A DNA stretch of 64,000 nucleotides from Hydractinia symbiolongicarpus (lineage: Eukaryota > Cnidaria > Hydrozoa > Anthoathecata > Hydractiniidae): contig NC_079889.1 in NCBI RefSeq assembly GCF_029227915.1, positions 8,310,001-8,374,000 of the forward strand, read 5' to 3'. Shown here in pieces: positions 1 to 44,073 of this stretch; position 1 is the stretch's first letter, and each line of letters begins with the position of its first letter. Under the pieces are notes generated by a model that did no database searches, was not told the origin of the DNA, and was given only the letters and a program-made list of their open reading frames with translations. The position numbers were made by a program, and so were the translations under genes.

Positions 1-298
1 ACAAGTTTCAAAAGCTGCGAAAGAGGCAATGGCTTCCATAAATTGCACGATGTTCGGGATTCCAGCACGTTCCCCGGATCTCAATCCTATAGAGAATGTT
101 TTTCACCTTGTAAGGAAGCAGATTCGTGATGATGCCCTACGAATGCAACTGACATGAGAGAGTTACAAGCAATTTTGCGAAAGGGTAAAACGCACTATCG
201 AAAACTTTCCTACCGACATTATAAACAGAACGATCGAGTCAATACCAAAGCGACTGAAACTTGTGGTTCAAGGAAAAGGCAACAGAACCAAGTATTAA
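1..298 (+). pseudogene. Tc1/IS630-type transposase, copy 1, 3' end with nonsense codon
   Basis: Only the end of the gene lies in the window. It contains the SPDLNPIEN block with the third catalytic acid. A TGA at 155-157 replaces the CGA found in copy 3, at residue 268 of the long frame. It removes about 47 C-terminal residues but lies after the catalytic glutamate. Copy 2 carries the same stop, so copies 1 and 2 are closer to each other here than to copy 3. Confidence 0.9.
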
Positions 299-365
299 AT
301 TACTTTTTCATTTTTTTGTTGGGAGAAATGTTTTATATAGTGTGATTTTCCATTTGAAGGTTTAG

Positions 366-597
366 GGTCACGCGTCACCAACGCGTCACCAACAAGTCAC
401 CAACATGTCACCAATACATGCCCACCAAAATGACGCGTCACCACACGTCACCACTAATAATATAAAATATACTAATACTATTATTATAATACTGTTTGGT
501 GACATGTGGTGACATGTGTCTTTTTTGTCATTTTCCTATATAACTACTGGTAACATGTTGGTGACTCGTTGGTGACATGTTGGTGACATGTGACAAA
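366..597. promoter_or_regulatory. Inverted GGTGAC iteron block at unit junction, copy 1
   Basis: The left half carries about six GTCACC hexamers spaced roughly 10 nt apart. The right half carries about five GGTGAC hexamers in the opposite sense. Between them is an AT-rich core (465-500) that is itself partly palindromic. The block lies between the 3' ends of the transposase and rep genes. If the unit is opened in the core, the halves become subterminal inverted repeats of about 110 bp. They could bind the transposase, the Rep protein or both, and they resemble iteron origins of Rep-replicated DNA. The function is inferred. Confidence 0.7.
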
Positions 598-601
598 ACA
601 A

Positions 602-2017
602 TTAGAAACTATTGCTATCATACTCAGAACCTAACAAAACAAGTTTTGCAAAGCAGCTGGAACAGGGCTCCAACTGCTTCATTTCTTTAGCAGGAATTTG
701 ATGCGAGAATGAAAACATAGTCCATCGGGAGGACATCATGTCTGACTCCTTCTCGTCGCGTTGATTATATTTTCCAATCTACTCTATCTGGGCCTTGCTG
801 GTTGCAAAGAAAGGTATGGAGTTTGTCCTGTCGATGCATAAATCCGTAGCATACTGGTTTTTGGGTCTCGGTAAATGCACCGTTTGACCCTCCAGTAGCA
901 GCAAAAAATCGCTCCATGCTATTATTTCTGAAGACCACCTGAAATCATTTAGGTAAGCCACTTCACACTCGTCGAGCCCAACCCAGGCGTAGCGTCCAGT
1001 GGCAGGATTAACAAATGCGGTGAACATAATTTCAATAGGGTTCAGCAGAAATGACTTGCCACAATTAGTTGGTCCTACAAGCAAAATGTTGTTGCGTTTT
1101 TGACGACCCTTATTAAAACTTTCACGCAAAGCAGTAGCAAAAACTATAGCGTTGATGTGGTTTTTAAGCAGCACATCGCGAGCAGAAACGAGCCATTCAC
1201 CTTTGCAGTTGGAATTGCACGGCGCAAATGCATGGGATTGTATTATTTCCAACCGTGACTTGTTCTCCCTCTCAATAATTTGAGGTGCTTCTTGCATTCG
1301 CCAAGTTGTTGCGAGAAGGTCTGCGAGAGCCTTAGGTGACTTGTTCAAAACGAAAGAATGTAGATCTTTTTCCCCGCTTTGATTTCTTAGAAGAGCAGCC
1401 TGTAGCAATTCTGAGTCCTTTCGAATGTTGTGTTTTACCATGAACTCGGAAACGTCACTATTCGAAAGACGCTCTTTTGCTACAGGTGCTTCCGCAGCTG
1501 CAGGGGTGCTGTCTCTATCCCTCGTGGTGTTTAATCGTTGTCGCTTTGCAACCGTCGAGTTCCGCCTCATGGCTTTTTTTGTCTTTGGTGAACCTATCGT
1601 GCTCAAATCTGTGTGGTTTGGGCTGTGAAGTATGTCCGCCACCGGTTTGTTTTTTGCAACATATCTGTACGCTGCCACATAACCGCAATGCTGCGATGAA
1701 AAATGCAAAACAAGGTGGTGTTTGTTCCAAACACTGTTCTTTATAGGGTTCCACCTTCGAGTGCCATTGAACTTAACGCACATATGAAAATGCTTTCCCC
1801 CGTTAGCGTGATCTTCTATACAACATGCCAACTGCTCAACAGAGCGATTGCTGGCCCCGTTGTGAAATGCCTCAAGAATTATCTCGGAGAAACGCTGAGT
1901 GTTGGGGACCTTTTCCATGTCTGCTTGTGAATATGTTATCAAATAAGCTCTTCTATTGTCACGATTCGATAAACTTTGTGTAAAGTCCAATTTTTCAAAA
2001 CTGTTGTCGGCGCTCAT
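602..2017 (-). pseudogene. Rep-like HUH nuclease/SF3 helicase, copy 1, nonsense-truncated
   Basis: Same gene as the intact copies at 4566-5981 and 8533-9948, but a single base change at 779 turns a tyrosine codon into a stop after residue 412, just beyond helicase motif C. The last 59 residues are lost. All HUH motifs and the Walker A and B motifs remain upstream of the stop. A three-base deletion lies immediately 5' of the start codon. Confidence 0.9.
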
Positions 2018-3174
2018 GTTTAAACTTTTAAAACTGAAAACAGAAGGCGTGCGTTTGTATATAAAATTCTTGTAGTTTATATCATTATTTGCAGTTTTTT
2101 TTATTTACGCTAGCTTATGTTGATTTAAAGGGAGCACACTTTAGCCTCCAACTTGTAAAAATATGTATTATGTAGCTCAGAAACTCAACTTGTATCAATC
2201 ACACAGTAAACTCTACCATTACTGTTTGTTTACATTTCATTCCTCATGTAAAAGTACTGAATTTTGAATAAAAGATGGCTACCAAGCACATGGCCACATG
2301 GGCTAGCTGTTTGATACAAGATGTGTTGGAGCAGTCTTATTTAGAGTATGTTAAGACTTGTTTTATTTTTGAACTGTTTTGAACCTGGTAAGGAAACCTC
2401 TGTTCAATTTTTTTTTCCAATTTTCAGACAATCCCAGACAAAATAAGTGGCAAAATGTCATTTTTCCAGTGAAAATTCAGTGTACCCCCCTTCCCCCAAT
2501 ATCAGAGTTGAGTTAGGCCTTGTTTTGTGCCCTGACGCATAGAATATGGGGGAGGGGGGGTGAGAGAAACAGTATTTTGTGAAAATTGCCACTATATTTT
2601 GTCTGGGATTGTCTGAGACAAGTTTAGACTTAGAATTTTTCCGAGTTCAGTTTCGACTTAGATTTTTTCCAGCATTTGACTTGGTACCTTGTGAAGTGAT
2701 ATTTTGTGTTAATGATAACAACAAATGTTCTGAAAGGCAAAATATCTCTTCAATTTTGCAGGTGACACTCGGCTTGCGTACAGTTTCCCGTGCCTCCAGG
2801 GAAGAATTTGACGCATAAACTTCGCCTTTGTGATAAAAATATACTGTTTTCTTTTTTTTTACTATATACAAACAAATCCGATAAATAATCTCTCTATTAA
2901 AGTCTTATGTGCATATTAACGTACTAAAAACTGTATATACCAGTGCGAAACAGCTGCGTTTACATTTACACGTGTTGATTTAGCATGTTAATGTTGAACG
3001 GTAAATTTGAACGTTCGCTTCAACGTTTGTTTGTATTTTCTTGTTCAAATTCAGGACAAAAACATATGTAAACAAAGCGTTCCGTACTGGTGACTACATT
3101 AAAATTTCAGTTTGCTTCTAACAAAATGTTCTGACAAAACTTGTACTTTCAGATATAAAGCTATAAATAACAAA
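2018..3174. promoter_or_regulatory. Central spacer between divergent rep and transposase, copy 2 unit
   Basis: About 1.16 kb separates the divergent starts of rep (-) and the transposase (+). It must hold both promoters. A TATA-like stretch on the - strand lies about 45 nt upstream of the rep ATG. An inverted-repeat insertion of about 193 bp (2424-2616) sits in the middle. I see no convincing coding sequence. Confidence 0.6.
2424..2616. repeat. MITE-like inverted repeat inside unit
   Basis: The ends read TCAGACAATCCC... and ...GGGATTGTCTGA, with matching arms of about 30 nt that continue through a shared AGACAAAATA block. The same structure is at 6391-6583, so it was present before the array amplified. 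It contains C- and G-rich runs. I could not identify a target duplication. Confidence 0.6.
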
Positions 3175-4262
3175 ATGCAACAGCAACGCAACATCACCAA
3201 AAAGATTACGCCTGAAATGTCGACGTACTTTAAGGTACTTCATCAACAAAACGGAATGACGGGTGCAGAAATAAAAAAAATGTTTCCTCAATTTGCGTTA
3301 CGCAGCTACACCGACAAATGAAACATGAGCTCGGTCGTGAAGACAAGCGACACAACAACACTGGAAGACCAAGGAAATTGACAGTTCGCGATGAACGTAC
3401 CGTACTTAGAACGATAACAAGACTTCGCGAGGAGCGGAATCAATTTTCATCCAAGCGCATTCAAGAAGAAGCGAACCTGGCACATGTATCAACAAGAACA
3501 GTACGTCGTTGCTTACACAAACATGGATATAATTATCGTCAAGCTCGAAAGAAAGGTCTCGTCACGAAAACCGACAAGGTCAAGAGACTTGCATTTGCAA
3601 GAGAAATGCTTCCTGTGGGAACTGATTTTTGGAAATATGAAATTGCGTTTTATTTTGATGGGGTGAGTTTTGGTCACAAAAGCAATCCGCACGGAGAGGC
3701 TCGAGCAGCTGGCGCAATGACTTGGAGACTCGCAAAAGAAGGTCTTAGTCAAACCACAAAAGGCAAGAAGGAAGGGAGTGGGGGCAAAATGGCTCAGTTT
3801 TTTATTGGAATATCTTACGATCGTGGCGTAGTTCTTTGTGAACAAATGGAAGACAAACTGACTGGAAAAACCTTTGCTGAATTTGTGAAAACGCATTTTC
3901 CAAAAACATTTACACGTACTGTCAATCCTCAATGCCATACATTTTTGCAAGATGGAGATCCGCGACAAGTTTCAAAGGCTGCGAAAGAGGCAATGGCTTC
4001 CATAAATTGCACGATGTTCGGGATTCCAGCACGTTCCCCGGATCTCAATCCTATAGAGAATGTTTTTCACCTTGTAAGGAAGCAGATTCGTGATGATGCC
4101 CTACGAATGCAACTGACATGAGAGAGTTACAAGCAATTTTGCGAAAGGGTAAAACGCACTATCGAAAACTTTCCTACCGACATTATAAACAGAACGATCG
4201 AGTCAATACCAAAGCGACTGAAACTTGTGGTTCAAGGAAAAGGCAACAGAACCAAGTATTAA
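3175..4262 (+). pseudogene. Tc1/IS630-type DD34E transposase, copy 2, nonsense-truncated
   Basis: An N-terminal helix-turn-helix segment starts at the ATG at 3175 and runs to 3321. The catalytic frame starts at 3318 and overlaps it by four bases (ATGA). The catalytic frame keeps D114, D212 and E247, but a TGA at 4119-4121 stops it at residue 267. The paired rep gene of this unit (4566-5981) is intact, so the two genes have decayed independently. Confidence 0.9.
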
Positions 4263-4329
4263 ATTACTTTTTCATTTTTTTGTTGGGAGAAATGTTTTAT
4301 ATAGTGTGATTTTCCATTTGAAGGTTTAG

Positions 4330-4561
4330 GGTCACGCGTCACCAACGCGTCACCAACGCGTCACCAACATGTCACCAATACATGCCCACCAAAATGACGC
4401 GTCACCACACGTCACCACTAATAATATAAAATATACTAATACTATTATTATAATACTGTTTGGTGACATGTGGTGACATGTGTCTTTTTTGTCATTTTCC
4501 TATATAACTACTGGTAACATGTTGGTGACTCGTTGGTGACATGTTGGTGACATGTGACAAA
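4330..4561. promoter_or_regulatory. Inverted GGTGAC iteron block at unit junction, copy 2
   Basis: Same layout as the block at 366-597. The third left-hand iteron linker reads GCG here and AAG in copies 1 and 3, a change confined to the spacer next to an unchanged hexamer. The two half-blocks are inverted about an AT-rich core near 4430-4465. Confidence 0.7.
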
Positions 4562-4565
4562 ACAA

Positions 4566-5981
4566 TTAGAAACTATTGCTATCATACTCAGAACCTAACA
4601 AAACAAGTTTTGCAAAGCAGCTGGAACAGGGCTCCAACTGCTTCATTTCTTTAGCAGGAATTTGATGCGAGAATGAAAACATAGTCCATCGGGAGGACAT
4701 CATGTCTGACTCCTTCTCGTCGCGTTGATTATATTTTCCAATGTACTCTATCTGGGCCTTGCTGGTTGCAAAGAAAGGTATGGAGTTTGTCCTGTCGATG
4801 CATAAATCCGTAGCATACTGGTTTTTGGGTCTCGGTAAATGCACCGTTTGACCCTCCAGTAGCAGCAAAAAATCGCTCCATGCTATTATTTCTGAAGACC
4901 ACCTGAAATCATTTAGGTAAGCCACTTCACACTCGTCGAGCCCAACCCAGGCGTAGCGTCCAGTGGCAGGATTAACAAATGCGGTGAACATAATTTCAAT
5001 AGGGTTCAGCAGAAATGACTTGCCACAATTAGTTGGTCCTACAAGCAAAATGTTGTTGCGTTTTTGACGACCCTTATTAAAACTTTCACGCAAAGCAGTA
5101 GCAAAAACTATAGCGTTGATGTGGTTTTTAAGCAGCACATCGCGAGCAGAAACGAGCCATTCACCTTTGCAGTTGGAATTGCACGGCGCAAATGCATGGG
5201 ATTGTATTATTTCCAACCGTGACTTGTTCTCCCTCTCAATAATTTGAGGTGCTTCTTGCATTCGCCAAGTTGTTGCGAGAAGGTCTGCGAGAGCCTTAGG
5301 TGACTTGTTCAAAACGAAAGAATGTAGATCTTTTTCCCCGCTTTGATTTCTTAGAAGAGCAGCCTGTAGCAATTCTGAGTCCTTTCGAATGTTGTGTTTT
5401 ACCATGAACTCGGAAACGTCACTATTCGAAAGACGCTCTTTTGCTACAGGTGCTTCCGCAGCTGCAGGGGTGCTGTCTCTATCCCTCGTGGTGTTTAATC
5501 GTTGTCGCTTTGCAACCGTCGAGTTCCGCCTCATGGCTTTTTTTGTCTTTGGTGAACCTATCGTGCTCAAATCTGTGTGGTTTGGGCTGTGAAGTATGTC
5601 CGCCACCGGTTTGTTTTTTGCAACATATCTGTACGCTGCCACATAACCGCAATGCTGCGATGAAAAATGCAAAACAAGGTGGTGTTTGTTCCAAACACTG
5701 TTCTTTATAGGGTTCCACCTTCGAGTGCCATTGAACTTAACGCACATATGAAAATGCTTTCCCCCGTTAGCGTGATCTTCTATACAACATGCCAACTGCT
5801 CAACAGAGCGATTGCTGGCCCCGTTGTGAAATGCCTCAAGAATTATCTCGGAGAAACGCTGAGTGTTGGGGACCTTTTCCATGTCTGCTTGTGAATATGT
5901 TATCAAATAAGCTCTTCTATTGTCACGATTCGATAAACTTTGTGTAAAGTCCAATTTTTCAAAACTGTTGTCGGCGCTCAT
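4566..5981 (-). CDS. Rep-like protein: HUH endonuclease + SF3 helicase, copy 2 (intact)
   Basis: 471 residues, ATG to stop. Motif I is AYLITYSQ (24-31). The HUH motif is HFH (76-78, in KHFHMCVKF). Motif III is YVAK with tyrosine 119. Together these form the active site of a rolling-circle nuclease that nicks one strand and stays linked through the tyrosine. A basic linker (about 145-165) follows, then a Cys-containing segment (267-271) and an SF3-type ATPase: Walker A GPTNCGKS (315-322), Walker B WVGLDE (345-350), motif C IPFFATS (401-407). This order matches Rep of CRESS-DNA replicons and parvovirus NS1-like proteins. A TATA-like box lies about 45 nt upstream (6021-6032). It is transcribed divergently from the transposase. 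It could be a transposon replication protein or a captured viral gene; its role is inferred. Confidence 0.9.
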   Translation of the reverse strand: MSADNSFEKLDFTQSLSNRDNRRAYLITYSQADMEKVPNTQRFSEIILEAFHNGASNRSVEQLACCIEDHANGGKHFHMCVKFNGTRRWNPIKNSVWNKHHLVLHFSSQHCGYVAAYRYVAKNKPVADILHSPNHTDLSTIGSPKTKKAMRRNSTVAKRQRLNTTRDRDSTPAAAEAPVAKERLSNSDVSEFMVKHNIRKDSELLQAALLRNQSGEKDLHSFVLNKSPKALADLLATTWRMQEAPQIIERENKSRLEIIQSHAFAPCNSNCKGEWLVSARDVLLKNHINAIVFATALRESFNKGRQKRNNILLVGPTNCGKSFLLNPIEIMFTAFVNPATGRYAWVGLDECEVAYLNDFRWSSEIIAWSDFLLLLEGQTVHLPRPKNQYATDLCIDRTNSIPFFATSKAQIEYIGKYNQRDEKESDMMSSRWTMFSFSHQIPAKEMKQLEPCSSCFAKLVLLGSEYDSNSF

Positions 5982-7141
5982 GTCTATTAAACTTTTAAAA
6001 CTGAAAACAGAAGGCGTGCGTTTGTATATAAAATTCTTGTAGTTTATATCATTATTTGCAGTTTTTTTTATTTACGCTAGCTTATGTTGATTTAAAGGGA
6101 GCACACTTTAGCCTCCAACTTGTAAAAATATGTATTATGTAGCTCAGAAACTCAACTTGTATCAATCACACAGTAAACTCTACCATTACTGTTTGTTTAC
6201 ATTTCATTCCTCATGTAAAAGTACTGAATTTTGAATAAAAGATGGCTACCAAGCACATGGCCACATGGGCTAGCTGTTTGATACAAGATGTGTTGGAGCA
6301 GTCTTATTTAGAGTATGTTAAGACTTGTTTTATTTTTGAACTGTTTTGAACCTGGTAAGGAAACCTCTGTTCAATTTTTTTTTCCAATTTTCAGACAATC
6401 CCAGACAAAATAAGTGGCAAAATGTCATTTTTCCAGTGAAAATTCAGTGTACCCCCCTTCCCCCAATATCAGAGTTGAGTTAGGCCTTGTTTTGTGCCCT
6501 GACGCATAGAATATGGGGGAGGGGGGGTGAGAGAAACAGTATTTTGTGAAAATTGCCACTATATTTTGTCTGGGATTGTCTGAGACAAGTTTAGACTTAG
6601 AATTTTTCCGAGTTCAGTTTCGACTTAGATTTTTTCCAGCATTTGACTTGGTACCTTGTGAAGTGATATTTTGTGTTAATGATAATAACAAATGTTCTGA
6701 AAGGCAAAATATCTCTTCAATTTTGCAGGTGACACTCGGCTTGCGTACAGTTTCCCGTGCCTCCAGGGAAGAATTTGACGCATAAACTTCGCCTTTGTGA
6801 TAAAAATATACTGTTTTCTTTTTTTTTACTATATACAAACAAATCCGATAAATAATCTCTCTATTAAAGTCTTATGTGCATATTAACGTACTAAAAACTG
6901 TATATACCAGTGCGAAACAGCTGCGTTTACATTTACACGTGTTGATTTAGCATGTTAATGTTGAACGGTAAATTTGAACGTTCGCTTCAACGTTTGTTTG
7001 TATTTTCTTGTTCAAATTCAGGACAAAAACATATGTAAACAAAGCGTTCCGTACTGGTGACTACATTAAAATTTCAGTTTGCTTCTAACAAAATGTTCTG
7101 ACAAAACTTGTACTTTCAGATATAAAGCTATAAATAACAAA
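5982..7141. promoter_or_regulatory. Central spacer between divergent rep and transposase, copy 3 unit
   Basis: A 1.16-kb non-coding spacer. On the - strand a TATATAC-type box (6021-6032) fits the rep promoter. On the + side an AT-rich stretch, including TATAAAG and ATAAATA, lies immediately before the transposase ATG at 7142. The inverted-repeat insertion recurs at 6391-6583. One isolated GGTGAC occurs near 7055. Confidence 0.6.
6391..6583. repeat. MITE-like inverted repeat inside unit (second copy)
   Basis: Counterpart of 2424-2616, with terminal arms TCAGACAATCCC and its complement and the same internal G-rich run near 6515-6530. Confidence 0.6.
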
Positions 7142-8229
7142 ATGCAACAGCAACGCAACATCACCAAAAAGATTACGCCTGAAATGTCGACGTACTTTAA
7201 GGTACTTCATCAACAAAACGGAATGACGGGTGCAGAAATAAAAAAAATGTTTCCTCAATTTGCGTTACGCAGCTACACCGACAAATGAAACATGAGCTCG
7301 GTCGTGAAGACAAGCGACACAACAACACTGGAAGACCAAGGAAATTGACAGTTCGCGATGAACGTACCGTACTTAGAACGATAACAAGACTTCGCGAGGA
7401 GCGGAATCAATTTTCATCCAAGCGCATTCAAGAAGAAGCGAACCTGGCACATGTATCAACAAGAACAGTACGTCGTTGCTTACACAAACATGGATATAAT
7501 TATCGTCAAGCTCGAAAGAAAGGTCTCGTCACGAAAACCGACAAGGTCAAGAGACTTGCATTTGCAAGAGAAATGCTTCCTGTGGGAACTGATTTTTGGA
7601 AATATGAAATTGCGTTTTATTTTGATGGGGTGAGTTTTGGTCACAAAAGCAATCCGCACGGAGAGGCTCGAGCAGCTGGCGCAATGACTTGGAGACTCGC
7701 AAAAGAAGGTCTTAGTCAAACCACAAAAGGCAAGAAGGAAGGGAGTGGGGGCAAAATGGCTCAGTTTTTTATTGGAATATCTTACGATCGTGGCGTAGTT
7801 CTTTGTGAACAAATGGAAGACAAACTGACTGGAAAAACCTTTGCTGAATTTGTGAAAACGCATTTTCCAAAAACATTTACACGTACTGTCAATCCTCAAT
7901 GCCATACATTTTTGCAAGATGGAGATCCGCGACAAGTTTCAAAGGCTGCGAAAGAGGCAATGGCTTCCATAAATTGCACGATGTTCGGGATTCCAGCACG
8001 TTCCCCGGATCTCAATCCTATAGAGAATGTTTTTCACCTTGTAAGGAAGCAGATTCGTGATGATGCCCTACGAATGCAACTGACACGAGAGAGTTACAAG
8101 CAATTTTGCGAAAGGGTAAAACGCACTATCGAAAACTTTCCTACCGACATTATAAACAGAACGATCGAGTCAATACCAAAGCGACTGAAACTTGTGGTTC
8201 AAGGAAAAGGCAACAGAACCAAGTATTAA
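7142..8229 (+). CDS. Tc1/IS630-type DD34E transposase, copy 3 (catalytic frame intact)
   Basis: The catalytic frame (7285-8229, 314 residues) holds D114 in FYFDGVSF, D212 in LQDGDP and E247 in NPIEN. Exactly 34 residues separate the last two, the Tc1/mariner DD34E signature. GRPRKL (16-21) is the usual AT-hook-like linker, and a second HTH lies at about 45-75. An N-terminal HTH segment begins at the ATG at 7142 (MQQQRNIT...) and runs to a TGA at 7286-7288 in another frame. Similarity to Tc1 N-termini continues across the boundary, so the two frames belong to one protein. All copies share this discontinuity, so it is an old lesion, a missed splice or a frameshift signal. This is the only unit here with both genes otherwise intact. 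Confidence 0.85.
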
Positions 8230-8296
8230 ATTACTTTTTCTTTTTTTTGTTGGGAGAAATGTTTTATATAGTGTGATTTTCCATTTGAAGGTTTAG

Positions 8297-8528
8297 GGTC
8301 ACGCGTCACCAACGCGTCACCAACAAGTCACCAACATGTCACCAATACATGCCCACCAAAATGACGCGTCACCACACGTCACCACTAATAATATAAAATA
8401 TACTAATACTATTATTATAATACTGTTTGGTGACATGTGGTGACATGTGTCTTTTTTGTCATTTTCCTATATAACTACTGGTAACATGTTGGTGACTCGT
8501 TGGTGACATGTTGGTGACATGTGACAAA
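8297..8528. promoter_or_regulatory. Inverted GGTGAC iteron block at unit junction, copy 3
   Basis: Third instance of the junction block, nearly identical to copy 1, including the AAG spacer. It separates the converging 3' ends of the copy 3 transposase and rep genes, which lie 303 bp apart. Confidence 0.7.
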
Positions 8529-8532
8529 ACAA

Positions 8533-9948
8533 TTAGAAACTATTGCTATCATACTCAGAACCTAACAAAACAAGTTTTGCAAAGCAGCTGGAACAGGGCT
8601 CCAACTGCTTCATTTCTTTAGCAGGAATTTGATGCGAGAATGAAAACATAGTCCATCGGGAGGACATCATGTCTGACTCCTTCTCGTCGCGTTGATTATA
8701 TTTTCCAATGTACTCTATCTGGGCCTTGCTGGTTGCAAAGAAAGGTATGGAGTTTGTCCTGTCGATGCATAAATCCGTAGCATACTGGTTTTTGGGTCTC
8801 GGTAAATGCACCGTTTGACCCTCCAGTAGCAGCAAAAAATCGCTCCATGCTATTATTTCTGAAGACCACCTGAAATCATTTAGGTAAGCCACTTCACACT
8901 CGTCGAGCCCAACCCAGGCGTAGCGTCCAGTGGCAGGATTAACAAATGCGGTGAACATAATTTCAATAGGGTTCAGCAGAAATGACTTGCCACAATTAGT
9001 TGGTCCTACAAGCAAAATGTTGTTGCGTTTTTGACGACCCTTATTAAAACTTTCACGCAAAGCAGTAGCAAAAACTATAGCGTTGATGTGGTTTTTAAGC
9101 AGCACATCGCGAGCAGAAACGAGCCATTCACCTTTGCAGTTGGAATTGCACGGCGCAAATGCATGGGATTGTATTATTTCCAACCGTGACTTGTTCTCCC
9201 TCTCAATAATTTGAGGTGCTTCTTGCATTCGCCAAGTTGTTGCGAGAAGGTCTGCGAGAGCCTTAGGTGACTTGTTCAAAACGAAAGAATGTAGATCTTT
9301 TTCCCCGCTTTGATTTCTTAGAAGAGCAGCCTGTAGCAATTCTGAGTCCTTTCGAATGTTGTGTTTTACCATTAACTCGGAAACGTCACTATTCGAAAGA
9401 CGCTCTTTTGCTACAGGTGCTTCCGCAGCTGCAGGGGTGCTGTCTCTATCCCTCGTGGTGTTTAATCGTTGTCGCTTTGCAACCGTCGAGTTCCGCCTCA
9501 TGGCTTTTTTTGTCTTTGGTGAACCTATCGTGCTCAAATCTGTGTGGTTTGGGCTGTGAAGTATGTCCGCCACCGGTTTGTTTTTTGCAACATATCTGTA
9601 CGCTGCCACATAACCGCAATGCTGCGATGAAAAATGCAAAACAAGGTGGTGTTTGTTCCAAACACTGTTCTTTATAGGGTTCCACCTTCGAGTGCCATTG
9701 AACTTAACGCACATATGAAAATGCTTTCCCCCGTTAGCGTGATCTTCTATACAACATGCCAACTGCTTAACAGAGCGATTGCTGGCCCCGTTGTGAAATG
9801 CCTCAAGAATTATCTCGGAGAAACGCTGAGTGTTGGGGACCTTTTCCATGTCTGCTTGTGAATATGTTATCAAATAAGCTCTTCTATTGTCACGATTCGA
9901 TAAACTTTGTGTAAAGTCCAATTTTTCAAAACTGTTGTCGGCGCTCAT
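8533..9948 (-). CDS. Rep-like protein: HUH endonuclease + SF3 helicase, copy 3 (intact)
   Basis: 471 residues with the same motifs as copy 2. Two substitutions distinguish it: E61K, fifteen residues before the HFH motif, and F192L in the linker between nuclease and helicase. Neither touches a catalytic residue. Downstream of its start the unit continues for only 209 bp before the array ends, so the start retains its TATA-like box (about 9988-9999) but lacks the rest of the central spacer and a divergent transposase. Confidence 0.9.
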   Translation of the reverse strand: MSADNSFEKLDFTQSLSNRDNRRAYLITYSQADMEKVPNTQRFSEIILEAFHNGASNRSVKQLACCIEDHANGGKHFHMCVKFNGTRRWNPIKNSVWNKHHLVLHFSSQHCGYVAAYRYVAKNKPVADILHSPNHTDLSTIGSPKTKKAMRRNSTVAKRQRLNTTRDRDSTPAAAEAPVAKERLSNSDVSELMVKHNIRKDSELLQAALLRNQSGEKDLHSFVLNKSPKALADLLATTWRMQEAPQIIERENKSRLEIIQSHAFAPCNSNCKGEWLVSARDVLLKNHINAIVFATALRESFNKGRQKRNNILLVGPTNCGKSFLLNPIEIMFTAFVNPATGRYAWVGLDECEVAYLNDFRWSSEIIAWSDFLLLLEGQTVHLPRPKNQYATDLCIDRTNSIPFFATSKAQIEYIGKYNQRDEKESDMMSSRWTMFSFSHQIPAKEMKQLEPCSSCFAKLVLLGSEYDSNSF

Positions 9949-10157
9949 GTCTATTAAACTTTTAAAACTGAAAACAGAAGGCGTGCGTTTGTATATAAAA
10001 TTCTTGTAGTTTATATCATTATTTGCAGTTTTTTTTATTTACGCTAGCTTATGTTGATTTAAAGGGAGCACACTTTAGCCTCCAACTTGTAAAAATATGT
10101 ATTATGTAGCTCAGAAACTCAACTTGTATCAATCACACAGTAAACTCTACCATTACT

Positions 10158-11039
10158 ACTATCATCTACCATCAAGAAACTGTTCTGTTCTTATCCAGTG
10201 TGACCAGTCACATGGTAGAGAAATGCCCCCTGAAACACATGATCATTCGATGCTGCAGTTCAATCAATCCCAACAGGCTGGCCATTAGGGATGAAAGAGA
10301 AGTTTCAAAGTTAAGATTTTCCAAGATGTTAGAAAAGCTAACTTCTTTAGGGCAAGTCACCCCTAAAGTTGCTGATGATGCTAAAGAACAGTTCTCAAAG
10401 CTCATTGATGATGTTGTACCTGAACACCAGGAAAAGTTTCTCTCATTTGAAAAGTTTGATCAAAGGCTAGATACATTCTTTGCCCAGTTTCTAAAAACAA
10501 AAGGTTTTGAGTCTTTATGGAGTATTTTTAAGCTCGTATTCTGCCTGAGTCACGGACAATCTGCTATTGAACGAGGCTTCAAAGCAAATAAAGAATTCAT
10601 TAAAGAGAACCAGTCAGAATGTTCGCTGAAATCATTAAGAATTCTGCACGATCACATGATTGCAAAAGAAGTGCGAGCACACAACATTCCAATTACAAGG
10701 GAATTAGTTAAGTCTGTGAAGTGTGCAAGATCGCGTTATGTTGAAATTAATAATGAAAAGAAGAAGTTAAAAGTGGATTCTGGAAAAGCATTGAAACGAA
10801 AGGTTATTTCAACTGAAATTGAAGAACTGCAAAGGAAAAAACAATTCCTCCCAACCAGTATAAACACTCTCATTAAAGATGCTGATGAAGTGGCATTGAA
10901 AGCACACACAAATGCTGACTTTCAAATCCTTGGACGATCAAACGATTTACGAATGTTAGCCAACACCAAGAAGGAACAATTTGACGAGTTGGTTCAGATG
11001 GAGCAAGCATTAATACTTCGAAAGGATTCCATTGTTTGA
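10158..11039 (+). pseudogene. hAT-like transposase C-terminal fragment
   Basis: An open frame of 279 codons (10200-11039) without a credible ATG at its start. A possible splice acceptor (TTATCCAG) lies just upstream. The middle contains LSHGQSAIERGFKANKEF (about residues 115-132), which resembles the C-terminal dimerisation region of hAT-family transposases. A long charged helical stretch follows (KKKLKVDSGKALKRK). The catalytic RNase H-fold residues are not visible, so this is a 3' fragment or last exon. It abuts the end of the tandem array at 10157. The family call rests on one motif region. Confidence 0.5.
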
Positions 11040-15630: not shown

Positions 15631-16704
15631 TTACTGTATATACTCCTCCAGAATTGGCGGCTCTAATTCGAAGAAGGACGATGTTTGTGAACCATATAGA
15701 CAAGTGCGAACATTGGTCAGTAATGCACAAACAATGTACATTTTACCAACTGCACTAAGTTGCACTTTTAAATTCTTTTTAAAATCAAGAAAAGCAAAAT
15801 AATTTAAAATTTCACCGAACACCCATTCTACGGCTACCCTAACTTTACTCATGCTCTTGTTGTAATTTACTTTTTGTGGAGTTAAGTGTCCTCTAAATGG
15901 TGCTTGCAAATGACTTCGTAGTGGATAGGCAGGGTCACCGTAGATACACAGTGGTTGTCCATAAAGTGTGTTGGAGTACTGTTGAAGGTCTCCCAGGAGA
16001 TTTGAGGCTGCTAACATCCCGCTATCGTGCCTTTTTCCTTCCATTGGTCCAAATAAATTTGCTATAAGACCATTTGGGGCTACGACGGATTGAAAATTGA
16101 GTGCATGAACTCGTTTGTGTCCATTGTATAACGCACATTGGTTTTCGCCAGGCCTACATACTGGCCGGACTGTCCCATCCACAAATCCCCAACAATTTTG
16201 TAAGGCAGCACCTTTATCATGGACTACTTGAGCGTGGCGTTCTAATTCTGGCTGTGAGAGCCATGACTGGTTAAAACTGCGTAACAGATGTCCATATTCT
16301 GAGTAGATGAAGTTTAGCATGTAATTGGTCATCATGCAAATTTCAGGAACTGGCCTTCCGAATCTACTTATCATATCAGAGTATCTGCATGGGTATGCAA
16401 ACCTTTTCAGTAGTGCACAAAAAGACTCGATTCCTTTGAAAACAGAACGATTGGAACAGGTAATACGTTCTGAAATCTGAAAAACTTGGGCTAGCCTGTA
16501 GATGTCAGAACGATCAAAACGAAATTCTGATTTGCATTCCGCATCAGTCATCAAATCCAAGTCAAATGTATTGTGCTTCCAATATGGAAAATCTAAATTT
16601 TTGCTAGTGTTAATATCGAAAAGTAAAGCAAATTCATCATCTTTAATCATATTTTGGTTATAGGCGACCAGGAGCACATTCCTCGTGTCACGAAAGGTAG
16701 CCAT
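15631..16704 (-). CDS. PIF/Harbinger transposase (DDE nuclease)
   Basis: 357 residues, open from ATG to stop. The DDE triad is visible: D176 in GFVDGTVRPV, D257 in IYGDPAYPL, E293 in VRVAVEWVFG. The RPGENQ..YNGHKR..HALNFQ block (185-205) between the first two acids is typical of this superfamily. It catalyses excision and insertion with 3-bp duplications, matching the AAT flanks. The frame is intact, but the Myb-like partner is frameshifted, so this copy probably depends on another for movement. Confidence 0.9.
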   Translation of the reverse strand: MATFRDTRNVLLVAYNQNMIKDDEFALLFDINTSKNLDFPYWKHNTFDLDLMTDAECKSEFRFDRSDIYRLAQVFQISERITCSNRSVFKGIESFCALLKRFAYPCRYSDMISRFGRPVPEICMMTNYMLNFIYSEYGHLLRSFNQSWLSQPELERHAQVVHDKGAALQNCWGFVDGTVRPVCRPGENQCALYNGHKRVHALNFQSVVAPNGLIANLFGPMEGKRHDSGMLAASNLLGDLQQYSNTLYGQPLCIYGDPAYPLRSHLQAPFRGHLTPQKVNYNKSMSKVRVAVEWVFGEILNYFAFLDFKKNLKVQLSAVGKMYIVCALLTNVRTCLYGSQTSSFFELEPPILEEYIQ

Positions 16705-17214
16705 ATTTGTTTACATGTTTTCCCGCCGTCCAAAGTTTACATTTTTGCTTAATACGGATTTCAAGACGGGACCCCAAACGTACTCGATCAAATCCCTTTC
16801 CATGAAATCCCGTCCTGATTGCCGCACCGTCGTCTTTGCTTAAGGTCGCTAATAATTTACAAAGAGGTGGCAAGCCACCGCAATGATAAACTCAACCTGT
16901 TAGGTCTTTGGAAACAAGCTAAAGGTTGTACTCCTCTAGAGAATATGCCTCTAAAAGCACAATTCTCCCTTTTTACAAGCAATTAAAAAAATATATAAAA
17001 AAAAATAAAAAGGACACAACACATTTGAAAAGATTAACAGAACTTTAACCAAGGGCAGGTAGGTTTCGACCCATATTTCTGAACCTAAGTACCCTGGATG
17101 TCTAGCTGGGTCACCTCGAAGAGGTCCGCGGACGGTCTTCAGCAGAAACTAGACATCCCTATCTTCCTAAAATTAACATTGACCCCTTTCTGTTCAACTG
17201 TGCTATTCTTTGTT

Positions 17215-37045: not shown

Positions 37046-37537
37046 ATACCATATTGGTCAAGAACCGTAATGGTGGGGACACCGATGCCGTGTTTTTACG
37101 GATTCTAATTGGTGAGATTATAAACAAAATGTAATATCGTTGATTGATTGGACAAAATGGATCACGTAGATTTTTCCAAACACAAAAGTTCTTTGCTTTG
37201 ATTGGACAAAATGGAACACGTGGTTTAGGCCATCGAATTATACTTTCCTGGCGCCACTTTTTTTTCAAACCCTCTGGTAATTTACCGGAGCGTGTTGTGT
37301 TTGTTTGCTGGGACTTTATTGACATTGGAACATACATTGGATAAGTATTATTTGATAACTTCGTCCGTGTCTTTTGCTAGCAACCAAACAAACATTTAGG
37401 TGCAAACTGCAGCTAGTGCATCTTTTAGTAAATTTACTTAATTTTTTGTCTGATTTTTAGACCCCTGCTGTGTCCTGCATTTATATAGTAAAAGGGTTTG
37501 TTTACCTGATCAACCATTTAGTGCAGACAAATTCATC
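37046..37537 (+). promoter_or_regulatory. Upstream region of the Helitron gene
   Basis: Two GATTGGACAAAATGGA repeats (about 37143 and 37198), each containing an ATTGG (inverted CCAAT) box and followed by ACACGT or TCACGT. A TATATAG box at about 37482 lies 55 nt before the ATG at 37538. The arrangement is promoter-like, but the function is inferred. Confidence 0.5.
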
Positions 37538-40431
37538 ATGATATCAGTCCAAGCATATCGTGCCACCATCGGTTCTTTTTATAATGTAGCCGCTAGTCAC
37601 TCCAATAACATTAAGAATGGTAGAAATTTTCACACACAATCAGGAATGTTTTTTGACAATCTTGATAATAACAACCACTTTATTCATTTTTTGAAACTTT
37701 TTATTTCGATAATTTTCATGTGTTGTCTGAGCTGTAACATTAATCTTGCATGTTTGAAGTTACTGTTATTGTTATCCGGGGATATTGAAAGCAATCCTGG
37801 ACCCTTCAATAACAATGATATTGACTTCCAAATAACACTACAAGAATCTTTTGCTGCCCATCTTCTAAATCAGTCAAATTCTGCAGACCATATAGTTGCT
37901 TATGCTAGAAGTATTGGTCTGTCGAATATAACATATCGAGAAAATACAATAGGGGATGGCAACTGCTTTTATAGAGCAATAGTACAGCAATTTAATCGCC
38001 CTGAGATCAGACAAATTGTACCCCCTGAACTACATTTTCAGGATCATCTCCAACTGCGAGAAGCTGTGGTCAAATTTGTTCGCAAAAATAGTGATATGGA
38101 AATTTTTAAAAATAACAGAGACTTTTTATTTACAAAACCAGAAGAGTGGGAACATGACTTACAAACTCAATCAAGGCCTACTGTTTATGTTGAAGAGATT
38201 TTCATACGTGCTACTGCAATAATGCTGGGCATCAACATTTTGATAACATCAGATACTAGTACTGCATTACATCCATATACCCTTATAAGTTTTAGTCATG
38301 ATGAAACACATGATATTTCTGGTGAACAACAAGTCGCACATCTATTGACTGATGGTACCACTACAGGTGCTTTCATGTTGCTTGGAAGGGTTAATGACAA
38401 TCATTACCAATCGCTGATCTTTGATGACAATGTGAGCATTCCTCCTGTTACATCATTCAGTCCACCTAAGAAAGTTCCTTGTTTGTCATCAAAAAGTACA
38501 ATCCAGCCTGAAAATATAACCAATCAGGCTGGTGAAAAGGAAGTGACTACTTTGAAGGAAAGTCAAGATCTTTCAGTAGAGAAAATACTGGAATCTCTTA
38601 TGTCTTCTTATAAAACAACAAAAAAGAAAAATGATAGAGAATATGCTCTAAAGCAAAAGTGTCTTCAGTTGAATATTAAATATGAAGAACCTGAAGTCAA
38701 TGAAACAATTATCGAAACAAAAAGAAGGCGCTCTCGTATATATTATAGATGCAGAAAAGCCGTTTGTAAAACAGCTGTGGGTAAACAGAAAAATTCAAAT
38801 TTAAAAAACCGACCTGTTACACTGCCAATCACTACACACAATCAGAAAAATATTTTGTCAACAAATTTACCAACCACACAACAGTCCATACTAACAAATT
38901 TATCAACCCTACAGTCAATCTCAACAGTTGTCACAGGCAACCAGTCCAGTGATCAAGACATTTTTGGAAGTGAAACTGCCACCATTCATCAAAATCCCGA
39001 TGTAGTGGCTGCTGTAATACAGTTTGAAGAAGGTGAGAAATTACATAGTTTATCAACCTGTAAAACTTGTTTTGAAACTCGACCAGTATTTCACGCAACA
39101 CCTCCAATAAGACCTACTGCAAAAAATGAAACAAAACCAATTGCTGTTAAGCCTTGGAAAATATTCAGCGATGGTAGGTGTGATAGGTGTCACAGGGAGA
39201 GTCTTAGTCGTTTTAAAAAGAATGTTAAGACACCTGCTAGATTTTCAGGTATACTGTCAGCTGATAATGACGACTTGGGTCCGTTACACGATAACATTCG
39301 TCATAATGATATGCATTTTTTACCAGTACCACCATATCTCCAAAATTTGACCATACTAGAAGTAGCATTAATTCGTCGTATTACTGTCATTATGAATATA
39401 CACCTCCTGCGGTATGGCATGCTTGCATCAAAAGGTCATTGCATCAGTTTTCCTCAAAGAATGCAAATTGCTACTGAACTGCCATCATTACCGTCAGAAG
39501 TTGGAATAGTGGTTATTAAAAAGAAAGGAATTCAAAATTCAGTTCAACAGTATACTGTGCAAAGGGGTAAAGTTGAAAACGCATTACGGGGACTGTGTTT
39601 TGGATACCCAGAAGGGGGTGTTGAAGGTCCAGATACTAAAAATAAACATCAATACAATGGCTCTGATCACATTGACAAACCTTTAAAAGGACGCTACTTC
39701 CAGTTCCTGCCGAATGAATACTATAAGGATGTCTCAATAAAATATGACCGCATTCAAAATTTACCAGAGATGCGTTCTGAATTACCTGATTTGCCAGTTG
39801 TGGAATTGCCAAATATCATACCAGAAGGAGATAAGGGTCCTGCTGAAAATCAATTTCAACAAAACTTACCTGACGATGACGAGAGTATAACCCGTTCTGG
39901 TTTAGTTTGCCCGATTGAACCTAAAGATGCTGACAAAGAGTTACGAATAGTACTGGAGAAGCTCTTGGGTTCTGAAGATGCAGTTAATCAAGCTCTTCAA
40001 CATGGCACAGTTGCGAATGCAAATTTAGAATATACACGAGAACGGCCTATTCGGGAATTAAAAACTCCTGGGTTTTTTACTATGGCATACCCAACTGTTT
40101 TTATTAATGGAAATTGTGACTTAACTGTTCCAAGGTTAAATAAAATTAACTTTGAGGAATACATCGAACATATATATTATTGTTCTGATAATCGTGTAGC
40201 ACGTCATCCGTACTTGAAATTTTTCTTATTAAATATGCGTTTGCGAATGCAAGCATTGCAGCAGGGTAGCTTTCTTGTTTCCCAACAATTAAATGATGCT
40301 CATCTCACAATCGCTGAACTTCGAGATAATTTACAAAATGATGATGATTCAGTTCCACGTAAAATTATTAGTATTGGAAAAAACCTGGTAAATACTGATC
40401 CATATTGGAGAGACCAAAAAAAAAATTGGAT
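37538..40431 (+). CDS. Helitron protein N-terminal part: 2A motif, OTU protease, Cys-rich region
   Basis: Starts at the ATG at 37538, 55 nt after a TATA box. Residues 48-80 form a hydrophobic leader rich in L, I, F and C. GDIESNPGP (81-89) is a canonical 2A ribosome-skipping motif, which would release the leader between G88 and P89. OTU domain at about 130-295: GDGNCFYRAI with D140 and C143, then HYQSL with H289. A Cys-rich region follows (STCKTCFETRP, DGRCDRCHRES, about 507-560). The final part enters the Helitron Rep N-terminal region (PRKIISIGKNL). The open frame runs on to 40552, but true coding changes frame at a run of ten A near 40416-40425. Confidence 0.8.
37778..37804 (+). other. 2A ribosome-skipping motif
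   Basis: Encodes GDIESNPGP, matching the D-x-E-x-N-P-G-P consensus, directly after a leucine-rich hydrophobic leader. In animal retroelements and NLR-type genes, such 2A leaders can direct secretion of the uncleaved fraction. Here it precedes an OTU domain. Confidence 0.85.
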
Positions 40432-42231
40432 GCCATGCTGTTTTTTAGACGAAATGAATTTGGCGATTTACCAGCATATTTTGATACCAACAGTTGTGCC
40501 GAATTTCATTGGAAACCATTGCATGAACTACTTATTAAGTATTATGCGTTGATAAACAATGTAAACGAAGATGCTGTACGCCAGCAAATGGAAAGTGATA
40601 ATAAATTCAAGCGGGAAATGATTCTACAAAATCTTCATATTGTGACACAGTATTTCGATGCAAGGACTATAAATTACTTCGCCACAGTTAGTAAGGAAGT
40701 ATTTCAATATGATGACTATTGGTTGCGATATAAATTTGCTAAAAGTCGAGGTGAGATACATGGACACGCAATAATATCGTCATCTAAACATGCCCGGAAA
40801 GTCAAAACTATAATGGATAGCTTGTCTGATGATGTTGCAGACTCACAAGCATTAAAACCTGCAGCGCAAGAACTTCAAAATTGGTTACAAACAACAAATG
40901 AAGACAGTAATGACATTTTTTCACCAATGTTTACTTCACTGCATCCTGCTGGTGGAAATGAAATTATAGATACTTCTGGAATTAGAACTTGGGTTCCAAA
41001 CAAAGATCAATGGGCCAGACCAGAGGGGACCCAAGCTCCACCGGACCATAACCCATTGGCACAAGAACTTTCGAATGTTGCTAGTCATGAAGGTGGTATA
41101 AAAGAGCAACATACCCATCTTGTGAACAGAATTGGCCTCCATAATTGTAATTCCAATTGTTTGCGTTATCGCCGTAAGAATAAAAAAGATACTGCTTCAC
41201 AGAAGTACTGTCGCTTTCATTTTGGCGATCTTGATCCACAAACCAAAAAAACAAGTGGTAAAGAGATTCATCCTTTTAATGCTGTCATAACAGAAGGGGA
41301 ACATCCTAGATATGAGGGACCACGGGATCATCCTCGCTTGATGATGCATGTAAAAACACGCCTACTTAGTTGGTTAGCAAATTGTGATAGCCAACCCATT
41401 ATCGATCAGAACCTTCTCGCTCTAAAAAAATACATTGCTAGTTATGCTTGCAAAGGTGCTGCTTCAACGGAAGATTTAGTACATGTTTATCGCCATCTCA
41501 TTGAAAACACTGATGATGGAAGCACTGTTAAAAATTTGGCTCAACGACTACTTCAAAAAATTGCGGGTTTAGTAGATGTTCCAGGTGCTGCGGCGGATTT
41601 CATTAATAGTGGTGGTCGTCTGACTAGATGTACCAGGAATTTTCGATACATTGGTATCAGTGGTTTCCGAGCCTTGGAAACGTCTGGTGAAGATGGAACT
41701 GTTACAAAAAGTAGCGCATTAGACAAATACTTAAGTGATAAGCGGAGAGAAACTGAGCCAGAAATATCATTATGGAACTGGAGCAAAAAGTGTAATTGTA
41801 CCTGCAAAGTAGATCACGTCCCAGTTTTTACAGGAATATCTACAAAACCTGTCTGGCCTGTTACTGAGGACTATGCAAAAGCTATGCTCATTATATTTTC
41901 TGTTGGAACGTGGCACAATACTGAAGATTTGAAGGAACAACATGAGTCATTTGCTGCTGCTTTGGCTTCCCTTGTTCAAACTGAAGAATGCCCATCAATA
42001 TTAATTGATTCATTGAAAGAGGCTAAACAATCATTCGATAAAAAAAGCGAGAGAACACAAAGTCACACCCGTGCAATCAATATTGAAACCAATACTCAGT
42101 CTTCGGATCAATCATCACAATATACAGATGCAAGTTCCCAATGTTCCCAAAATTCTGCCATTGCACAAATGAACATAGGTAGAGCAATAATGAGAGATAT
42201 TGCTAGGCACCATGTTGCTGATATCAATTAG
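40405..42231 (+). pseudogene. Helitron Rep (HUH, Y2) domain, ended by TAG
   Basis: In the 608-codon frame, RGEIHGHAIIS holds the H-x-H metal motif (H119, H121), and KKYIASYACKG holds two tyrosines spaced Y-x3-Y (Y343, Y347), the Helitron rolling-circle nuclease signature. The FHWKPLHELLIKYY block and a CNSNCLRYRR..YCRFHFG zinc-like region lie in the expected order. The TAG at 42229-42231 interrupts the frame. The same frame then continues into the helicase. Confidence 0.85.
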
Positions 42232-44073
42232 CCAAATGTACAACAGGTTCTTCCTGATGGTGGGCCTACATTTAATTGGAAAAATTATGCAATTCAAAGT
42301 TTTGGTAGTCAATGGCCAATTAATGCTGACTTATGGTTACAATCTATATCTGAAGAAGCAGAAAAAAATGAATTGCAGCATGCTGAAGAATGTACTTTAC
42401 CCCAAATAAACATCTTAAATGCTAATGAATTACAAAGAACAGTCATTGGTATAAATCTTCAGCATTTATTACAAGTCGCAAAAGGAACTGTGCCAACAGG
42501 TACCCAGCCAATACGTTTATTAATACAAGGAACAGCCGGTGTCGGGAAAACATTCATCATTACTGCGCTTACTAGAATCGTTCGTCGTATTTTTAAGCGA
42601 AATTCTGCTGTTATGAACTTGGCCCCAACTGGGGCAGCATCAGTCCTCATACCTAATGGTCGCACTATACACTCAATGACTCCACCACCACACAAACTTA
42701 AAAAAGATAAGAATTTAAATTCTGTCCAGCTTTCTGACTATCCGTTGGGTGATGTAGCTCTAAGAAAGCTAAGAAAATATACAGGCATGCATGAAAACAA
42801 TGAACTGAAATTGATTCAACTTAATATTGATGAACGTAGCATGCAGTCGAAGCTTCTAGTGGCTTGGTGCAGCCAAAGATTATGTGAGGCAACAGGAGAC
42901 TTTGATAATTATTATGGAGGTGTACCAACTGTCAATTTCTTTGGGGACCTTGGTCAACTTGGACCAATTCGTGCTTTGGATTTACATCAGCCGCCGAAAC
43001 ATGATGATTCCACAATCAACTTTGCTGGTTATGCAATCTATCGCTCATTTCACGATGTTATTGTTCTTACAGAAACAATGCGCCAAGGACCAGATCAGTT
43101 GGCCCTTCTACAGCGGCTACTTAGAATACGCAATGGATCGATTACTCAACAAGACTGGCAAGATATAAATAGTCGTTATGAAAATGCTTTGCCCCATGCC
43201 GAAAAATGTAACTTTTTGCATGGTCGCGTCCTTACATTAATGGAAACATGGAATGAAGTTAATGAAGAAAACCATAATAAATTAGCTAACCTTGGTGTGC
43301 CAGTTGCTGTTATTCCATCAAGAGGACGTGGTAAACATCACTCTTTAACTGATAAGCAACTGGGTCAAATACCACTAAGATCTTTAATGGCAGTTGGTGC
43401 AACTGTAATCCTTACCAAGAACCAAAAGGGTCTTACAGGCCTTGGCCTAAATAATGGTGCCATGGGAAAAGTAATTGCAATCCTTTATTCACCAAATATG
43501 TCACCACCTGAATTTCCAATAGCTGTTGTAGTCAATTTCCCAAATTATAAAGGCCCGTCATGGATTCAAGAACATCCGAAATGGATACCAATTACTGCTG
43601 TTGAAGGTGGATGTGAGTCTGATTGTTGCAGCAGAAATGGCCTGCCGTTAATGCCAGGATATGCAATAACTATTGCCAAAAGTCAGGGTATGTCAATTGG
43701 AGATGGTAAAACTGCCACCCACATGCGTATCAAGTTACAACAATCAATTCAGATGGAAAAAAATAACCTTGGTACAGCTTACACTGCATTCTCCAGATGC
43801 GAAAAAGAAAGAAATTGGGCACTTGTCGAACCAATTACTCAAGAACGACTCTTGTACATTAATACACATCCCCGTATGAAAGCCAGACAAGAGGAAGAGA
43901 AACGCCTGAAGGCATTATCGAATAAAACCGTCAAAAAATACAATATCACTATGGAAAAGTATATTAACTTGTTGAAAGAACTTGACCAGTTTTGTGATGA
44001 TGGTATTGAAGATGCAGTTTGTCCTTCACCATCTGTAAATTGCACATGTATAATATGCCTATCTCATTCATAA
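42232..44073 (+). CDS. Helitron Pif1-like helicase
   Basis: Continues the Rep frame after the TAG. From the Met at 42373 it is 566 residues. Walker A GTAGVGKT (53-60), NLAPTGAASVLI (motif Ia), FFGDLGQLGP (Walker B/II-III region), then the LTETMRQ block and a C-terminal SQGMSIGDG...YTAFSRCEKE segment, which is the last Pif1 motif. It would unwind the transposing strand. The domain is complete, but it depends on reading through one stop to be fused to Rep. Confidence 0.85.
   Translation, partial: PNVQQVLPDGGPTFNWKNYAIQSFGSQWPINADLWLQSISEEAEKNELQHAEECTLPQINILNANELQRTVIGINLQHLLQVAKGTVPTGTQPIRLLIQGTAGVGKTFIITALTRIVRRIFKRNSAVMNLAPTGAASVLIPNGRTIHSMTPPPHKLKKDKNLNSVQLSDYPLGDVALRKLRKYTGMHENNELKLIQLNIDERSMQSKLLVAWCSQRLCEATGDFDNYYGGVPTVNFFGDLGQLGPIRALDLHQPPKHDDSTINFAGYAIYRSFHDVIVLTETMRQGPDQLALLQRLLRIRNGSITQQDWQDINSRYENALPHAEKCNFLHGRVLTLMETWNEVNEENHNKLANLGVPVAVIPSRGRGKHHSLTDKQLGQIPLRSLMAVGATVILTKNQKGLTGLGLNNGAMGKVIAILYSPNMSPPEFPIAVVVNFPNYKGPSWIQEHPKWIPITAVEGGCESDCCSRNGLPLMPGYAITIAKSQGMSIGDGKTATHMRIKLQQSIQMEKNNLGTAYTAFSRCEKERNWALVEPITQERLLYINTHPRMKARQEEEKRLKALSNKTVKKYNITMEKYINLLKELDQFCDDGIEDAVCPSPSVNCTCIICLSHS

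Follow-up and report, generated by a model that had tools for sequence, protein, structure and literature searches.

At the left edge of a 64,000-nucleotide stretch of the genome of the hydrozoan Hydractinia symbiolongicarpus (contig NC_079889.1, positions 8,310,001 to 8,374,000; C15:8310001-8374000 in our numbering and called the window here) lie near-identical units of about 4 kb joined head to tail, each of which pairs a gene for a Tc1/mariner-type transposase (tnp, protein Tnp) with a gene for a protein combining HUH-type motifs with a superfamily 3 (SF3) helicase (rep, protein Rep). Three of these units reach into the window, u1 (1..3964, the repeat phase being set at the window edge), u2 (3965..7931) and the truncated u3 (7932..10157), all on the plus strand. 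The two genes diverge from a common spacer, as an earlier note made from the sequence alone had described. This spacer contains a direct terminal repeat (TR; 183 bp, CAATCCC...GGGATTG, plus strand, at 2429..2611 and in a second window copy at 6396..6578). The genes converge on a feature which that note did not mention, an imperfect palindrome of 244 nucleotides with GTCACC iterons between the 3' ends of tnp and rep (359..602 in u1, 4323..4566 in u2 and 8290..8533 in u3). On the minus strand, rep is open for 471 residues in u2 (4566..5981) and u3 (8533..9948), and the u1 copy (605..2017) is interrupted by one TAG and open over 779-2017. On the plus strand, a tnp copy with one TGA (C15:8309354-8310295) starts beyond the left window edge and reaches in with its 3' part (1..295), a second copy with one TGA lies at 3318..4262 (open portion 3318-4121), and an open reading frame (ORF) of 314 residues spans 7285..8229. 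The claim that each unit carries both genes thus stands, with the qualification that the first rep of the window and the tnp at 3318 have premature stops and that the 314-residue tnp ORF starts at an internal ATG, its first 48 codons (7142..7288, plus strand) being open in a different frame.

Bases 1-10157 are the right end of an array of 47.5 kb that starts at C15:8272650, 37 kb beyond the left edge of the window, and comprises 12 units, eleven of 3967-3981 bp and the truncated last one; the array first reported is real and not confined to the window. The near-identity of its units is borne out as well, the three in-window units differing at 12 alignment columns including one 3-bp indel, and no unit on the opposite strand was found in this array. 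Unit U8 carries a 95-column insertion and a 96-column deletion. The TR measures 193-194 bp in two other units of the array. At the left end TA adjoins a TR (TA|TR), while the truncated right end is followed by 12 bp of filler (10158-10169) and, from 10170, by the resumption of a multicopy repeat that the array interrupts and that lies on both sides of it.

The assignment of Tnp to the DD34E Tc1 transposases proved correct: Pfam matches are to HTH_Tnp_Tc3_2 and DDE_3, the best PDB match is Sleeping Beauty (6.6e-12) with the second D-to-E stretch aligned free of gaps, and a hand count gives a D-to-E spacing of 34 residues. Nine of the 12 Tnp copies of the C15 array are open over the 314-residue query, two have a TGA and one is split into two matches. 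The Rep translation contains HFH, YVAK, GPTNCGKS and IPFFATS, as read before; the first two we take to be the HUH and YxxK motifs, assigned by eye. Above the Pfam cut-offs Rep matches PPV_E1_C (1.2e-6) and Parvo_NS1 (6.9e-6; 25.7 bits against a cut-off of 20), so that HUH and YxxK motifs seen by eye stand in one protein with an SF3 helicase supported by profiles. The HUH model REP_ORF2-G2P (3.2e-4, 21.4 bits, cut-off 27.8) and the CRESS profile Gemini_AL1 (0.1, 13 bits, cut-off 24) stay under their cut-offs, and a three-row Rep profile finds papillomavirus E1 structures weakly (best 1.5e-4). An AlphaFold model of Rep built from three rows was poor (mean pLDDT, the predicted local distance difference test, 40.1). 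Over residues 1-471, 10 of the 12 Rep copies of the array are open; of the other two, one contains a TAG and one has lost the N-terminus. Between this family (family 1) and a second one, whose Rep is 52% identical and falls just below the Parvo_NS1 cut-off at 18.9 bits, differences by codon position are 0.43/0.26/0.62 (455 codons, one pair, synonymous sites saturated), a pattern suggesting that the protein has been maintained by selection between the families.

How general is the pairing of the two genes? Searches of the whole assembly (480.9 Mb, 76 contigs) gave 97 Rep and 132 Tnp matches, which were merged into loci when no more than 8 kb apart; the searches score best candidates only, so that a locus without a listed partner need not lack one. 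Among the matches listed there are 46 Rep loci and 69 Tnp loci. Tnp lies within 4.5 kb of 36 of the 46 Rep loci, in all 36 on the opposite strand, where 0.08 would be expected by chance, and rep lies within 4.5 kb of 36 of the 69 Tnp loci, which departs from the usual single-gene layout of Tc1/mariner elements. The pairing persists down to Reps about 34% identical to that of the window. Moreover, of the loci that seemed to hold rep only, all ten that were fetched contain Tnp, and two further ones on C6 are paired as well. The proposal that Tnp and Rep belong to one mobile unit is therefore upheld by recurrent pairs and dispersed insertions, and the opposite prospect raised with it, that all copies of rep would lack the transposase, is contradicted. 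Outside this genome, IMG/VR scans for Rep and Tnp returned 2, 2, 0 and 49 pattern matches, none of them confirmed, and thus no relative at the sensitivity used; none of the 77 matches of one scan of prokaryote genomes was confirmed as a relative.

Two further tandem arrangements contain parts of the pair. At C1:25565785-25604743 (L037) five copies of a 42%-identical rep are spaced 6.95-7.04 kb apart, with a sixth (39%) 9.9 kb further on; in the stretch read a different ORF lies beside rep, and a Tnp match was found at one edge only. A Tnp fragment (residues 229-308, about 51% identical) recurs at least 13 times at C13:8873742-8917817, mostly at a spacing of 2724-2735 bp.

Single insertions reveal the complete layout, TA | TR - tnp -> - iteron palindrome - <- rep - TR | TA, the TR being 171-207 bp long over all copies measured and each TR having inverted ends of its own. 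One such copy, which lies on C7, is 97-98% identical and has a 4-kb insert in rep, shows the termini TA|CAATCCCAGACAAAAT ... ATTTTGTCTGGGATTG|TA and TRs of 185 and 192 bp in direct orientation at its two ends. The idea that the TR is a miniature inverted-repeat transposable element (MITE) inserted into the spacer was dropped, as the same segment forms both ends of this insertion. The second family has the same plan at dispersed loci: of ten fetched (L027-L036) seven have both TRs, L029 and L035 show the right TR only and L030 none. Flanks common to L028 and L032 and to L033 and L034 reduce these to five independent insertions of 3.87-4.08 kb, 94.6-98.5% identical to one another and all flanked by TA. 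To judge from the flanks of L027-L036, this family seems to prefer GC-TA-GC-like targets. In addition, four solo TRs were fetched, of which L046 and L049 have TA on both sides, L047 has TA and TT, and L048 shows one end only. Altogether 11 independent insertions could be read at both ends (C7; L027, L028=L032, L031, L033=L034 and L036; one array each on C12 and C1; solo TRs L046, L047 and L049), and 10 of them, all but L047, have TA on both sides; TA also stands in five of six one-end readings (C15 left, L012, L029, L035 and L048; L040 has CA). The check proposed in the earlier note, whether the pair recurs in single insertions that share their ends and have TA duplications, thus came out positive. 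These counts leave aside L037 and L039, whose ends are not clear, L038, whose end differs and adjoins TA, and loci with no visible end. Four more distant families were read over the rep-adjacent stretch (L037, L038, L039 and L040); there the TR end of L040 adjoins CA, L039 has a partial TR and L037 none visible. L038 (C14:2333900-2335150) belongs to a related family with different TR ends (CAATCGTTGACAT...) and the same C-rich/G-rich inner arms.

The palindrome is common to both families. In the window its predicted fold reaches z-scores of -9.4 and -9.65 in two runs (-59 kcal/mol for the u2 copy, with the latter), and in the second family palindromes of 185-226 bp give -4.4 to -14.2 (seven copies folded, values for L030, L032 and L034 not being given). 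In both families one arm carries GTCAC motifs and the other GTGAC, and outside the palindrome these motifs are sparse, with eight in 3723 bp of the window unit and a single one in the remainder of L027. Inspection of the hairpin loop by eye gave no nick motif that could be claimed, the loop being too AT-rich. In the one unit read from the C12 array, from which rep is deleted, the palindrome is kept at 244 of 244 positions. The iteron palindrome is a candidate origin for Rep.

Arrays other than that of the window have the ends of simple insertions. Both the C12 array (L045) and the C1 array at 26.35-26.38 Mb begin with TA|TR on one side and end with TR|TA on the other. The former contains nine TRs and hence eight units, of which seven measure 2744-2752 bp and the remaining one 2189 bp, and no Rep match is listed for it; the latter contains 13 Tnp copies. 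The insertions thus form a series [TR-unit]n-TR with n = 0 (solo TR), 1, 8, 12 and about 13, the last figure carrying the reservation that part of the C1 array is without listed TRs. The occurrence of solo ends, single copies and long arrays in the chromosomes suggests a hybrid way of spreading. The C15 and C12 units have decayed in complementary fashion: the former have an open Rep and, within the window, a Tnp frame that lacks the N-terminus, and the C12 unit read has lost Rep and has a Tnp open for 362 residues. Each could serve the other in trans. At C1:26369109-26379325, where Tnp copies lie 1.86-1.97 kb apart, tandem growth apparently took place without TRs.

The two TRs of a copy are homogenised copy by copy. 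TRs of families 1 and 2 are 61.7% identical, and left and right TRs of three family-1 insertions differ by 2-5 substitutions (97-99% identical, gaps omitted); in the second family the pair of L027 is 100% identical and the other pairs differ at 3-20 of 204-207 columns, mostly through changes private to one TR. Informative sites were counted by hand from printed alignment columns, with 16 TRs for family 2. At six sites of that family the left and right TR of a copy agree in a variant: L031 contributes sites 121 and 122, L036 sites 38, 55 and 150, and L027 site 113, whose variant is found also in the sole TR of L035. Family 1 has three shared sites: at 158 and 172 the outer TRs of the C1 array agree, and at 97 C12 agrees with C15. 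No site separates left from right TRs across the independent copies of family 2, and none sorts lefts from rights in family 1, where the lengths of G runs vary irrespective of side. Cut-and-paste movement alone would have left TRs descend from left TRs. Since private variants are common to both TRs of a copy and no site sorts by side, a single TR appears to have given rise to the two TRs of an insertion, much as happens with long terminal repeats (LTRs), and the TRs look as if they had passed through a one-TR form.

How could such a set of insertions arise? We lean towards a two-gene Tc1/mariner-type family in which Rep would amplify a one-TR circle or concatemer and Tnp would insert TR-bounded stretches. 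Rep would bind the iterons and nick at the hairpin, and replication of a circular one-TR form would yield head-to-tail concatemers. Tnp would then cut any pair of TRs on their outer sides and insert [TR-unit]n-TR at TA, so that a single element would correspond to n=1, arrays to n>1 and the MITE-like solo TRs to n=0; unequal exchange would afterwards reshape the arrays in place. The replication step by Rep, on a circle or a concatemer, is what we infer, and for a cycle driven by Rep the chances seem to us near even. The most complete version, a self-replicating cut-and-paste transposon in which Rep makes concatemers from a one-TR circle, a Tc1-type Tnp inserts whole [TR-unit]n-TR stretches at TA, and solo, single and array forms are products of one cycle, is put forward tentatively, at a little under an even chance.

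Several observations speak against such a cycle. Variants among the C15 units lie mostly in contiguous blocks (U1-U4; U5-U9 plus U12; U10-U11), as unequal exchange would give them; two bases common to U4 and U11 fall outside the pattern. The C12 and C1 26.35-Mb arrays amplify units in which rep is deleted or cut to residues 1-56. Spacings in the C1 array are of two kinds, about 2752 bp and 1862-1972 bp, and for C1:26369109-26379325 no TR is among the matches listed, yet five Tnp copies recur. Block-structured variants and arrays of rep-deleted units require a part for recombination, or for Rep in trans, as well, and together with the mixed unit sizes on C1 they indicate that unequal exchange contributes to the building of arrays and might account for all of it. 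Among the matches listed, 10 of the 46 Rep loci have no nearby Tnp and 33 of the 69 Tnp loci no Rep. Furthermore, few TR sites are informative: 121 and 122 are possibly one event, L028 and L033 contribute none, and site 161 of family 1 is common to the left TR of C7 and the right TR of C12; homogenisation of the TRs could have come about through gene conversion. Neither a circle nor a nick site nor a replication intermediate was seen.

The same blocks, rep-deleted units and mixed unit sizes within one array favour the chief alternative, a cut-and-paste Tc1 element with long direct TRs whose arrays, solo TRs and TR homogeneity are made by unequal crossing-over and gene conversion of the host, recombination between direct repeats being expected anyway, and whose Rep is kept for another step, for instance to copy the element after excision or to prime repair. 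This alternative leaves unexplained the linkage of Rep to Tnp, the constraint on Rep between families and the iteron hairpin in both, and it would require TRs of about 200 bp that lie 3.5-3.9 kb apart to have been converted again and again, in one copy after another; we regard it as unlikely, though as a serious contender. Considerably less probable is an endogenised small DNA virus, CRESS- or parvovirus-like, that gained a Tc1 transposase and still exists exogenously. Rep has helicase matches of parvovirus and papillomavirus type and HUH-type motifs, and parvovirus-like repeats are reported from invertebrate genomes (Liu et al. 2011, PMC3198968). However, transposon ends bound the copies, IMG/VR yielded no relative at the sensitivity used, and the unit has no capsid-like ORF, all other ORFs of at least 80 residues listed for it being antisense to rep or tnp (no capsid profile was searched).

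An assembly artefact of a repeat, with which the earlier note had reckoned, is very improbable: the units are highly identical, and the flanks common to L028 and L032 and to L033 and L034 may reflect duplication or misplacement elsewhere in the assembly, but variants tell the 12 units of C15 apart (some in blocks only), two other arrays have clean ends bounded by TA, and single copies lie on other chromosomes. Equally negligible is a chance composite of two unrelated transposable elements between two MITEs, amplified once, which the MITE-like character of each TR and the wide distribution of each gene's class might suggest. It is refuted by the dispersed single insertions with TA duplications and by the 36 of 46 Rep loci at which Tnp lies on the opposite strand.

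In the remainder of the window, an ORF with a DDE_Tnp_4 domain at 15631-16710 represents another transposase. Long ORFs follow at 37454-44073, the first of them (37454-40552) with OTU and DUF6570 domains and the others Helitron- or helicase-like by eye, and diverged tandem repeats are clustered at 44156-46677. Elsewhere, positions 2714-2889 of L016 (C2:29252713-29252888) form a minisatellite of 11-bp iteron-like repeats, in a 6-kb locus that gave no TR, Rep or Tnp match.

Precedents for the combination are Teratorn and an element of the truffle Tuber melanosporum, as far as the available passages describe them. Teratorn is a piggyBac-herpesvirus fusion of 180 kb with a whole herpesvirus genome, for which its authors propose that a rolling-circle concatemer provides a unit flanked by two transposon copies that is integrated via transposition (PMC10175614). 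It thus resembles the present element as a cut-and-paste transposon fused to a replicon, in the geometry of TR-unit-TR, and differs from it in that here a unit of about 4 kb has Tc1-type ends and an HUH-SF3 Rep and forms arrays that reach about a dozen units. The geminivirus-like transposon of T. melanosporum has an interrupted Rep ORF and two interrupted or truncated transposase ORFs within one repeat bounded by 37-bp terminal inverted repeats (TIRs), without an obvious target duplication (Liu et al. 2011, PMC3198968); the class of its transposases is not named in those passages, and open ORFs, TA duplications, direct TRs, the iteron palindrome and arrays set the Hydractinia element apart. 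The same passages mention DENSOV_HM of Hydra and PIVE of planarians, both in Repbase, as repeats in animal genomes with a protein of parvovirus NS1/papillomavirus E1 helicase type, a likeness by description only, and they mention no transposase partner for either (PMC3198968).

With parvovirus NS1 and papillomavirus E1 proteins Rep shares the SF3 helicase domain, and it differs from them in its HUH-type N-terminus with a Tc1 partner; the linear Parvoviridae genome with terminal hairpins and a VP gene has no counterpart in a unit whose palindrome is internal and which besides rep and tnp has no VP-sized ORF. Helitrons encode RepHel with an SF1 helicase and make no target site duplication, whereas the element described here has SF3-type helicase matches and a TA duplication. 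LTR retroelements carry a reverse transcriptase between their direct repeats, a domain for which neither Rep nor Tnp has a Pfam match, and no other sizeable sense ORF is listed for the unit. From Tc1/mariner elements such as Sleeping Beauty, with which it has the DD34E transposase, the HTH domain, TIRs and the TA duplication in common, it differs by its second gene, the HUH-SF3 Rep, and by the internal iteron palindrome. In Sleeping Beauty the inner repeat is oriented as the outer one, whereas here direct TRs each have their own TIRs (pattern > < ... > <). No Tc1-type element with an HUH-SF3 Rep was found among the literature matches listed, at the level of titles and abstract openings, a scope beyond which most subscription papers and Repbase lie.

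Cut-and-paste elements are generally considered to gain copies only via replication and repair by the host. If the proposed cycle is true, an element with its own initiator of rolling-circle type would break this rule, and DNA transposons would gain an LTR-like life cycle without reverse transcription. It would also link small Rep replicons to Tc1 transposons and provide a concrete source of tandem arrays and MITEs. With 36 paired loci in one genome and several Rep frames free of stops, the cycle is testable in a single organism.

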